IMG/VR virus record: IMGVR_UViG_3300030406_000545 | Location: 1 to 22,228 of that record | Strand: one strand, 5' to 3' | DNA: 22,228 nucleotides | Source: a virus | Shown: positions 3,701 to 7,446 of the stretch, in pieces | Layout: the number at the start of each line of letters is the position of its first letter | How positions within the stretch are numbered: position 1 is the first letter of the stretch | The notes under the pieces: model-generated | What the model saw: only the letters and a program-made list of their open reading frames with translations | Told to the model about the DNA's origin: nothing | Databases searched by the model: none | Position numbers and translations under genes: made by a program

Positions 3701-4186
3701 TTATTTAGTTGTTACCTCAGTTACAAATTGTCCTGTTGTTATAGAACCTGCCCCACCTGGATCTAAATCTGTGATTGTATGATCTGCTTTCATAGTTACA
3801 TCAAATCCAGTACCTACACCAGCAGCAGTAGATGTGACACTACCAAAATTATTTACCTCACCAACTTCTAAATCACCAGATTGTAATGTATCAGGTAATA
3901 TTAAAGATTCTGTTAAAGCCCAGTTTGTTGCATTTGAGTTTATAGAATATTGCCCTGCATCAAAAGTTACTGCATTAGTTGTTGAGTTAACGCTAAAACC
4001 ACCTAACTTATCTCCTGAGTTAGATGTGCCTACATTAGTACCAGATGCACTATAAGAACCACCTAATCTTTCTACTTGCGTACCTGCTGCATTTACCTGT
4101 ATAGATACAGATGTTGTTAACTTGCTACTCACATCACAGTAAGCTGGTGTAGAAAATAAAAAAATAAAAGGTAGTAGTTTTTTCAT
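3701..4186 (-). CDS. Secreted beta-rich protein, cyanophage family
   Basis: A 161-residue protein with a typical signal peptide: MKK, LLPFIFLFSTPA, cleavage expected near AYC-D (residues 16-18). The mature chain is Gly/Ser/Thr/Asn-rich and beta-like: STKLT-type start DVSSKLTTSVSIQVNAAGTQ, ERLGGSYSASGTNVG, and a C-terminus AGSITTGQFVTEVTTK that I recall from cyanophage homologues of unknown function. The only Cys is at the signal cleavage region. Its ATG overlaps the TGA of the membrane protein gene at 4183, so translation is coupled. It probably functions outside the inner membrane. Confidence 0.75.
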   Translation of the reverse strand: MKKLLPFIFLFSTPAYCDVSSKLTTSVSIQVNAAGTQVERLGGSYSASGTNVGTSNSGDKLGGFSVNSTTNAVTFDAGQYSINSNATNWALTESLILPDTLQSGDLEVGEVNNFGSVTSTAAGVGTGFDVTMKADHTITDLDPGGAGSITTGQFVTEVTTK

Positions 4187-4566
4187 GTTTTTGATTTAGG
4201 GTCTACTTCTTTCACACCAATAATTTTGATTGGTTCTTGTATTATTCTTATAGTTTGCACGTTTTCATTAGAGTTTGCAACAGTTTTACCCTCTTCTATC
4301 TTTTCATCTTTCTTTTTTTTACCGCCTGGTGTGATATTAAAAGTTGCTAAACAGCCTGTAAATACTGAAGCTATGAATGTTATATCTTTAACCTCTCTAT
4401 CTTCTGTCAGACCAGGTATTGTTATGTAATTAAGGCTAATAATAAAACCAGCCCATACCATAACTCCTAACCTGATAAACGTGCCAAGTATCTCTAGTTG
4501 TTCTTCTTTATCGTCAAACTTTTCTTTTAGTTTTTGTAGAGGATTTTTAGATTTTTGCTCTGACAT
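4183..4566 (-). CDS. Two-helix membrane protein, cyanophage family (holin-like candidate)
   Basis: A 127-residue protein. A charged N-terminus (LQKLKEKFDDKEEQLEILGT, about 10-29) precedes one hydrophobic helix (IRLGVMVWAGFIISLNYITI, about 31-50) and a second (DITFIASVFTGCLATFNI, about 61-78). A cytoplasmic-type tail follows, starting GGKKKKDEK. From memory this layout is common in marine cyanophages. Size and two membrane helices would fit a holin or another membrane effector, but no lysin lies in the window and the role is unproven. It heads the leftward cluster of three secreted proteins and is coupled to the next gene by ATGA. Confidence 0.7.
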   Translation of the reverse strand: MSEQKSKNPLQKLKEKFDDKEEQLEILGTFIRLGVMVWAGFIISLNYITIPGLTEDREVKDITFIASVFTGCLATFNITPGGKKKKDEKIEEGKTVANSNENVQTIRIIQEPIKIIGVKEVDPKSKT

Positions 4567-6253: not shown

Positions 6254-7099
6254 TTATTTATTTATATTCTTTTCTATATCTAATACTCTTTGCATAGGTA
6301 TGGCAGCTACCTGTGGTACAACTGCATTTCCTAGTGCTTTAAGTCTGTCCATCCGACCTCGTAACCCATCATCTCCTCTACAAAGGCAGGGTTCAGAAAC
6401 ATATCCTGTCCAGTCTCTTCTGATAGTTCTCCTCTCCTTGCTATTGAGGAAAGCATTTGTCCAGACTGGTTGGGCTTGTCTTGTCCTGTCGCTTTGTGTT
6501 CGTGTGCTGTTGGTGTTGGAAGAACTAAGTGTATCTTTCTGCCTAATGTGTCCTGTTTCTTGCAGTTCTTTGTTGAATTGTAACAGCCGTCTTTGTGATC
6601 TCTTGCTGTCGGGGTAGGCAACGAGCCACCATCTTGCCCTCTGATGACAGGCTCCCAAAGCACTTGCTGAAATAACTGACCATTCTGCATCATACCCTGA
6701 TTCGTATAGTTCCCTGAGAACAATGTCCAGCCCTCTATTAGTGATCGCTGCCACGTTCTCCAAGACAACGTATCTGGGTCGTACCATGCGTATGATTCTG
6801 ATGAGTTCGTAAAACAAACCTGATCTGGTGTTTTTCGTAATTCCTTTTTGTAACCCTGCATTTGATATGTCCTGGCAGGGGAATCCACCACTAATGCAAT
6901 CATATTGAAAAGGCTCTGCTGTGAATGTTTTGATGTCATTGTGAATAGGTACGTGAGGCCAATGTTTTTTTAAAATTTTCTGAGAAAAAGAATTTATTTC
7001 GATAAATTGTGTTGTTTCATAACCTCCAACAATTTTTTCAGCAGCATAACTAAAACCACCAATACCTGCAAAAGTGTCTAATAATTTTAGTTTTTTCAT
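6254..7099 (-). CDS. C5 cytosine DNA methyltransferase
   Basis: Transfers a methyl group from S-adenosylmethionine to C5 of cytosine in DNA. Motifs in the 281 residues: I, LDTFAGIGGFS (7-17); IV, GGFPCQDIS with catalytic Cys75; VI, ENV (114-116); VIII, QRARWW (153-158); and X, GNAVVPQVA (257-265). Motif VIII to the MDRLKALGN block is the target-recognition region. It is short and low in complexity, probably because the same DNA also encodes the ORF at 6331-6939. The start overlaps the stop of the nuclease-like gene (ATGA). It may protect phage DNA from host restriction. No restriction enzyme is obvious unless the neighbouring nuclease is one. G+C rises sharply inside the gene. Confidence 0.92.
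   Translation of the reverse strand: MKKLKLLDTFAGIGGFSYAAEKIVGGYETTQFIEINSFSQKILKKHWPHVPIHNDIKTFTAEPFQYDCISGGFPCQDISNAGLQKGITKNTRSGLFYELIRIIRMVRPRYVVLENVAAITNRGLDIVLRELYESGYDAEWSVISASALGACHQRARWWLVAYPDSKRSQRRLLQFNKELQETGHIRQKDTLSSSNTNSTRTQSDRTRQAQPVWTNAFLNSKERRTIRRDWTGYVSEPCLCRGDDGLRGRMDRLKALGNAVVPQVAAIPMQRVLDIEKNINK
6331..6939 (-). CDS. Overlapping ORF inside the methyltransferase gene (methyltransferase-associated PTPTA protein)
   Basis: A 202-residue frame lies wholly within the methyltransferase gene, same strand, shifted +1. It has protein-like features: DSPARTY (19-25), AWYDPDTLSWRTWQRSL (51-67), GMMQNGQLFQQ (82-92), two copies of LPTPTA (107-112 and 140-145), LNPAFVEEMMG (182-192) and GWTDL (196-200). 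From memory, proteins with this motif order are annotated beside C5 methyltransferases in many phages and bacteria, with no known function. SPART is read from the bases of motif IV PCQD, and the NPAFVEEMMG block from the bases of the PCLCRGDDG block. The PTPTA repeats fall where the methyltransferase frame is little constrained, so they argue for real coding. G+C is about 46% here versus about 25% in the non-overlapped 5' part. No clear ribosome-binding site is seen. Confidence 0.6.
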   Translation of the reverse strand: MTSKHSQQSLFNMIALVVDSPARTYQMQGYKKELRKTPDQVCFTNSSESYAWYDPDTLSWRTWQRSLIEGWTLFSGNYTNQGMMQNGQLFQQVLWEPVIRGQDGGSLPTPTARDHKDGCYNSTKNCKKQDTLGRKIHLVLPTPTAHEHKATGQDKPNQSGQMLSSIARRGELSEETGQDMFLNPAFVEEMMGYEVGWTDLKH

Positions 7100-7446
7100 A
7101 ATAATAATTTTGTTAATCTTGCATACTGTTCAATAGTCATTACAACTCGCCAATTATCACCTTCTGCACAGCCTGGTCTTTTATTAAACCTGACCATAGT
7201 AATAGCATGGTCTACTTTTGCATTTAATCTTTGCTGTTCTGCTTCTCTAGGTTTTCTAAGTACCGCTTCACTCTTATCTTTCATATCCGTTACCTGTACA
7301 ACAGTATTAGGAATACCAACTAAATCACCTTTATCTTTATCCTGACCTGCACCAAAACGTCTTTCAACTATATGGCCTGTAGCTGCTGTTAGATATATAC
7401 ACGCTTCTCTTTCTGCTCTATCGCCCTTATTTTTTTGTGCGTTCAT
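7096..7446 (-). CDS. Holliday-junction-resolvase-like PD-(D/E)XK protein
   Basis: A 116-residue protein with the outline of small phage resolvase-like nucleases: KGDRAEREACIYL (7-19, Glu12 and Glu14), a GHIVERRFGAGQ strand (24-35), KGDLVGIP with Asp41, then VVQVTDMKD (49-57), where an E-x-K is expected. Here the place is Q-V-T, with Lys56 a few residues on, so the active site may be altered. It overlaps its neighbours on both sides by ATGA-type junctions and immediately precedes the methyltransferase. Resolving recombination intermediates is the best guess; a restriction-like role beside the methyltransferase is an alternative. Confidence 0.6.
   Translation of the reverse strand: MNAQKNKGDRAEREACIYLTAATGHIVERRFGAGQDKDKGDLVGIPNTVVQVTDMKDKSEAVLRKPREAEQQRLNAKVDHAITMVRFNKRPGCAEGDNWRVVMTIEQYARLTKLLL

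Follow-up and report, generated by a model that had tools for sequence, protein, structure and literature searches.

A phage C5-cytosine methyltransferase gene with two coding frames that appears to specify a two-subunit enzyme

Background

M.EcoHK31I and M.EaeI are C5-cytosine methyltransferases of the same kind, both for the sequence YGGCCR. The beta gene of M.EcoHK31I is said to be nested in its alpha gene in another frame, as Lee, Kam and Shaw reportedly described in 1995. Long same-strand overlaps are thought to be rare in prokaryotes. M.EcoHK31I is a two-polypeptide enzyme – its large subunit has motifs I–VIII and X, its small subunit has motif IX, and its recognition domain has been predicted in the large subunit (PMC3404938). 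M.AquI has its catalytic half and its recognition/motif IX half on separate chains (PMC3404938).

The gene described here is from a phage. It was found in a window of 22,228 nucleotides, the whole stretch of DNA that was analysed (positions 1 to 22,228 of IMG/VR record IMGVR_UViG_3300030406_000545). The two overlapping frames of the gene are called alpha and beta below. Compared by motif layout, alpha (motifs I–VIII and X) and beta (motif IX) resemble the large and small subunits of M.EcoHK31I, and the nesting in another frame is also alike, insofar as that of M.EcoHK31I is as described above. The recognition domain is predicted in the large subunit of M.EcoHK31I, whereas selection places it in beta here, and the gene here differs in lying in a phage. 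DNA searches from relatives, seeking M.EcoHK31I, returned prophage copies only, among the matches inspected. In M.AquI motif X is on the small subunit and here it is in alpha, so the locus is not of the M.AquI type, although an AquI-like split is found within the alpha/beta family, in the phages Toaka and Firecracker. Single-chain enzymes of the M.HhaI type have the same catalytic domain as alpha, but all of their motifs are in one frame, without a comparably long +1 frame.

A two-polypeptide, nested C5 enzyme is a known kind; what appears to be new is its breadth, and that the recognition region is placed in beta. A literature search, largely of sources outside subscription journals, found no account of the alpha/beta family as an overlapping gene.

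Results and discussion

The alpha frame

Alpha (6254–7099, minus strand) encodes the predicted large subunit of a C5-cytosine methyltransferase, with 281 amino acids. Residues 5–215 match PF00145 (E 4.8e-40), with motifs I–VIII of that family present, including PCQ and ENV, and the protein also matches phrog_363 (E 3.1e-71). Motif X is present as well, and motif IX is absent. A profile of HhaI-like single-chain enzymes covers motifs I–VIII of alpha and then stops; the match to M.HhaI in the PDB (E 4.8e-15) is likewise confined to motifs I–VIII. A single-chain C5 methyltransferase encoded by alpha was ruled out, as motif IX is in the +1 frame and not between motifs VIII and X.

In the AF2 model the large domain and motif X of alpha are confident and residues 168–247 (6359–6598, minus strand) are not, with a pLDDT of about 40–50. 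This is also a stretch in which selection on alpha is relaxed (dNN/dSN 1.18, see below), and the middle of alpha looks like a disordered linker opposite the recognition region of beta. Motif X (GNAVVP in the translation; 6314–6331, minus strand) lies directly 3' of the beta stop codon, where constraint on alpha is back (0.35).

The nested beta frame

The beta frame (6331–6939, minus strand) would encode a subunit of 202 amino acids that includes the variable region as well as motif IX. It was identified by a match to phrog_1008 (E 2.4e-27) and by the shuffling and selection tests described below. The original prediction was of a 202-codon ORF wholly within the C5 methyltransferase gene, on the same strand and in another frame; the coordinates confirm this, with an offset of +1. 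All of the motifs that it quoted are in the translation (LPTPTA twice, AWYDPDTLSWRTWQRSL, GMMQNGQLF, LNPAFVEEMMG and GWTDL). The bases of PCQD in alpha do also encode SPART in beta, and those of PCLCRGDDG also encode NPAFVEEMMG. The first LPTPTA module is at residues 107–112 (6604–6621, minus strand) and the second at residues 140–145 (6505–6522, minus strand), both read from the translation. By a loose pattern, relatives have between 0 and 5 LPTPTA-like modules.

No Pfam family matches beta. PHROG 1008, which is matched by all 103 beta sequences, is named 'DNA methyltransferase', a name without a mechanism, and its longer profile includes motif X, as in Toaka.

The first ATG of beta (6937–6939, minus strand) lies over the alpha codons for H-N-D-I, and no Shine-Dalgarno sequence was seen there on inspection. 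Of 228 loci, 204 have an ATG upstream of SPART. A selected start was tested for by the choice of third base ahead of the conserved Asp, which gave a slight signal in near relatives (p 0.01) and none in the other loci; third-base evidence of this kind for a selected beta start is weak. Modelled without a partner, beta had a pLDDT of 59.9 and a pTM of 0.30. A PDB structure search with this model found no match, the model being weak, as expected of a part that depends on a partner.

Dual coding compared with chance

To compare the beta frame with chance, synonymous codons were permuted in 200 shuffles that left the alpha protein sequence and codon usage intact. The shuffled beta region had a mean of 9.4 stops, with a minimum of 5, and was open in 0 of 200. 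The beta HMM score was 304.6 bits for the real sequence and 103.8 ± 15.2 bits for the shuffled ones, with the window being within the training set of the profile. Because alpha-synonymous shuffles bring at least 5 stops and collapse the family score, the beta frame is not a product of chance. In five isolate phages held out of the beta profile, the shuffle z was 4.8–10.5.

The two halves of beta were also scored separately in 145 distant held-out loci. In 105 of these (3.5 expected) the real N half scored above all 40 shuffles. The real C half did so in 143 (3.5 expected), but a pattern from this half had been used to retrieve the genome loci, so the unbiased part of this result is the 65 viral loci that alpha retrieved, 97% of which had z > 2.

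The control set was 78 HhaI-like phage C5 methyltransferases. Their longest +1 open stretch had a median of 54 codons and a maximum of 142, compared to medians of 221 and 266 codons in the two-frame family. Judged from these sequence comparisons, the overlap of alpha and beta is genuine dual coding. The original prediction held that both frames code, and on this the shuffles, the control methyltransferases and the selection test agree.

Selection and cassette exchange

Selection was estimated from 31 disjoint pairs, with each difference classified by what it changes in either frame. Within motifs IV–VIII alpha is constrained, with a dNN/dSN of 0.28 (0.24–0.33). After motif VIII alpha is unconstrained (1.18; 1.03–1.37) and beta is strongly constrained, with a dNN/dNS of 0.35 (0.30–0.40). 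Followed along the gene, the alpha ratio rises at motif VIII, from 0.28 to 1.27, and falls back to 0.35 at motif X (residues 247–268). This pattern was unchanged with close pairs only and with other transition weights. In the N half the beta ratio of 0.63 was not cleanly lower than the 0.50–1.31 upstream of beta; constraint on the N half rests on the shuffle test, since the rate ratio is similar upstream.

Between motifs VIII and X purifying selection acts on beta and not on alpha, so beta is most likely the frame that holds the variable target-recognition region. Position and exchange, along with selection, point to a recognition function for it. The window and its relative L011 differ by 11 base changes after motif VIII – beta is 100% identical, and alpha 89%. 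Rates in both frames had been proposed as a check, and over the variable region beta does change less than alpha. The LPTPTA repeats had been said to go beyond what conservation of the methyltransferase explains. On this the prediction was right, with one correction: freely varying alpha sequence underlies the second repeat only, and the first overlaps VAYPD, which is partly conserved in the methyltransferase.

The N part of alpha and the C part of beta were compared between the window and other relatives. L012 is 97% identical in the C part of beta and 83% in the N part of alpha. In L065 and L036 the N part of alpha is 85–87% identical and the C part of beta 54–58%; in L067 the figures are 56% for the N part of alpha and 79% for the C part of beta. 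In some relatives the two frames have lengthened together, with alpha reaching 542 codons. In L070, L073, L077 and L088, alpha has 479–542 codons and there are 4–5 LPTPTA-like modules. Enlarged relatives with extra LPTPTA-like modules may hold several recognition units.

Motif IX and the derived relatives

Beta carries C5 methyltransferase motif IX (LNPAFVEEMMGY). In the window this is LNPAFVEEMMGYEVGW, at 6349–6396 (minus strand, beta frame), identified from hhalign alignment to HhaI-like methyltransferases and from the locus L240. The hhalign match is short (16–52 columns, p 0.0025, probability 12%). In it, LNPAFVEEMMGYEVGW at the C-terminus of beta pairs with motif IX LTPRECARLQGFP of HhaI-like enzymes, and PTPTARDHKDG pairs with TLSARYYKDG, the stretch preceding motif IX in those enzymes. 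Relatives support this placement of motif IX more strongly. L240 (2694–3752 in an Acidimicrobiales genome) has motifs I–X in one frame. There LNPDFPEWMMGFPTGW, the same motif as the C-terminus of beta, is in the methyltransferase frame between motifs VIII and X, and the region is covered by PF00145 (2–315 of 324) and by the HhaI-like profile. L240 also matches phrog_1008 (5.9e-29). The +1 frame of L240 is still open over a relic of the N part of beta.

In two Mycobacterium phages, Toaka (L003:1233–2247) and Firecracker (L004:1125–2070), alpha stops after motif VIII, and an overlapping second ORF has motifs IX and X. Both overlapping ORFs are annotated in these phages, as methylase or methyltransferase, and the second frame of Toaka matches the C-terminal part of the methyltransferase profile phrog_116. 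In a quick tree with a single-chain outgroup, the two-frame family forms one clade, within which L240, Toaka and Firecracker group together (98% SH-aLRT); the three thus appear to be derived from nested forms, though the place of L240 is not firm because of its long branch.

By these comparisons beta does not form an accessory family of its own, and its C-terminal half is methyltransferase sequence, namely motif IX and the region preceding it. Beta had been proposed as a second family that could have arisen by overprinting. The N half, over motifs IV–VIII, does look overprinted; the C half, being methyltransferase sequence, does not fit the proposal. In the C half, the beta frame is the constrained and probably the original one, with alpha as filler.

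In one locus (L142:1631–3901) the beta frame is open for 757 codons to the end of the sequence, into a region of Dam-like adenine methyltransferase (phrog_111, E 1.9e-7), with alpha intact. This possible fusion of beta with a Dam-like protein argues for translation of beta.

Distribution of the two-frame gene

Beta was used to find 88 loci, and in each of them its frame was open and in phase +1. The same frame and phase recurred in every one of 80 viral loci retrieved through alpha alone, none of which lacked the beta frame, and in 80 of 80 loci from bacterial and archaeal genomes. A few contigs are common to both viral sets, giving about 245 distinct loci, which are the related loci that allow comparison of both frames. 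Homologues were thus found in the alternate frame of methyltransferase genes in all loci compared. The original prediction placed such proteins near C5 methyltransferases; the association with these genes is correct, but the homologues lie inside the gene, in the alternate frame, and not beside it. Stops in this frame among relatives, which were named as a sign against the prediction, were not found.

Relatives of beta are found in phages of Synechococcus, Microcystis, Mycobacterium, Lacticaseibacillus, Acinetobacter and other hosts, each within a methyltransferase gene at an offset of +1; in the Microcystis phage record the gene is incomplete. The genome loci span Pseudomonadota, Actinomycetota, Bacillota, Bacteroidota, Planctomycetota, Patescibacteria, Spirochaetota, archaea and others. 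Most of the annotated records inspected name alpha alone. E. coli prophages carry the two-frame gene. Two of these copies (L260:4013–4774 and L357:1486–2655) are annotated as broken, one with an internal stop and the other as two incomplete pieces, and other E. coli strains have intact copies.

Proposed enzyme and alternative explanations

Dual coding, the placement of the motifs and the hand-over of selection between frames are seen directly in these loci. Very probably, the one gene encodes in its two frames a two-subunit C5-cytosine DNA methyltransferase of the M.EcoHK31I kind. From the sequences we infer the expression of beta, internal initiation, assembly, activity, a target site and a biological role, as follows. 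Alpha would fold as the catalytic large domain (motifs I–VIII and X), with a loose, unconstrained linker leading to motif X. Translation of beta would be initiated at a start codon within alpha, in the +1 frame, to supply the recognition region and motif IX, and a single HhaI-like enzyme would form from the two subunits. Solitary phage methyltransferases usually shield DNA from restriction, and the simplest role for this enzyme would be to mark the phage DNA and so protect it from host restriction. As for its history, the recognition region and motif IX of a one-chain enzyme probably slipped to the +1 frame, with motif X back in frame 0. Later overprinting would have added the N half of beta on motifs IV–VIII and, on the recognition region, the linker of alpha.

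The absence of a Shine-Dalgarno sequence at the beta ATG, the weak conservation of the start and the switch of selection at motif VIII would also fit a programmed frameshift near motif VIII, giving a fused chain of motifs I–VIII, recognition region and motif IX with no separate beta. However, beta is open and conserved beyond the shuffles over motifs IV–VIII too, which slippage downstream would not need, and Toaka and Firecracker are annotated with separate overlapping ORFs, with motifs IX and X in the second. We consider a frameshift unlikely. Still less probable is a separate, overprinted regulatory or anti-restriction protein encoded by beta, with alpha a complete enzyme. This is close to the original prediction, which was right about two coding frames but not about beta as a separately invented family beside the methyltransferase. 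Alpha has no motif IX and is free of constraint where recognition is expected, the C-terminus of beta is motif IX, and alpha was never without the beta frame in the 80 loci found by alpha; these points outweigh the lack of a Pfam family for beta and the distinctive set of conserved motifs in its N half. That the beta frame is untranslated, with its similarity following from alpha conservation and codon bias, has almost no probability. SPART and the first LPTPTA do overlie conserved alpha motifs, but the shuffles, the control methyltransferases and the selection test all reject this explanation.

If the gene does encode a two-subunit enzyme, its wider meaning can be stated with somewhat less confidence. 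On balance it is probable that few long same-strand gene overlaps in prokaryotes and viruses are as widespread as this one, a C5 methyltransferase with its catalytic and recognition halves interleaved in two frames, in which selection shifts from frame 0 to frame +1 past motif VIII and returns to frame 0 at motif X. The specificity cassette would evolve and be exchanged in beta while alpha merely stays open, contrary to the published recognition domain in a large subunit. The overlap is ancient and fixed in phase across phages, bacteria and archaea, yet beta goes unnamed in most of the records inspected. Should the two-subunit explanation hold, it changes the cloning of many phage methyltransferases, in which alpha alone should fail, and shows where to seek target specificity. 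It would also provide a clear natural system for two frames that share constraint along one gene.

Genomic setting

The 22.7-kb virus record that includes the window has lambda-like tail genes. Upstream of alpha is a RusA-like gene (7096–7446, minus strand; phrog_244, E 9.7e-12), the stop codon of which overlaps the alpha start codon (ATGA). This overlap suggests that translation of the two genes is coupled. No partner nuclease for the alpha/beta system was recognised in the phage. The window also encodes a DUF6450 protein (PF20048, E 1.9e-26) at 4183–4566 (minus strand). Antisense to alpha and beta is an ORF of 105 codons (6300–6617, plus strand), found mechanically only.
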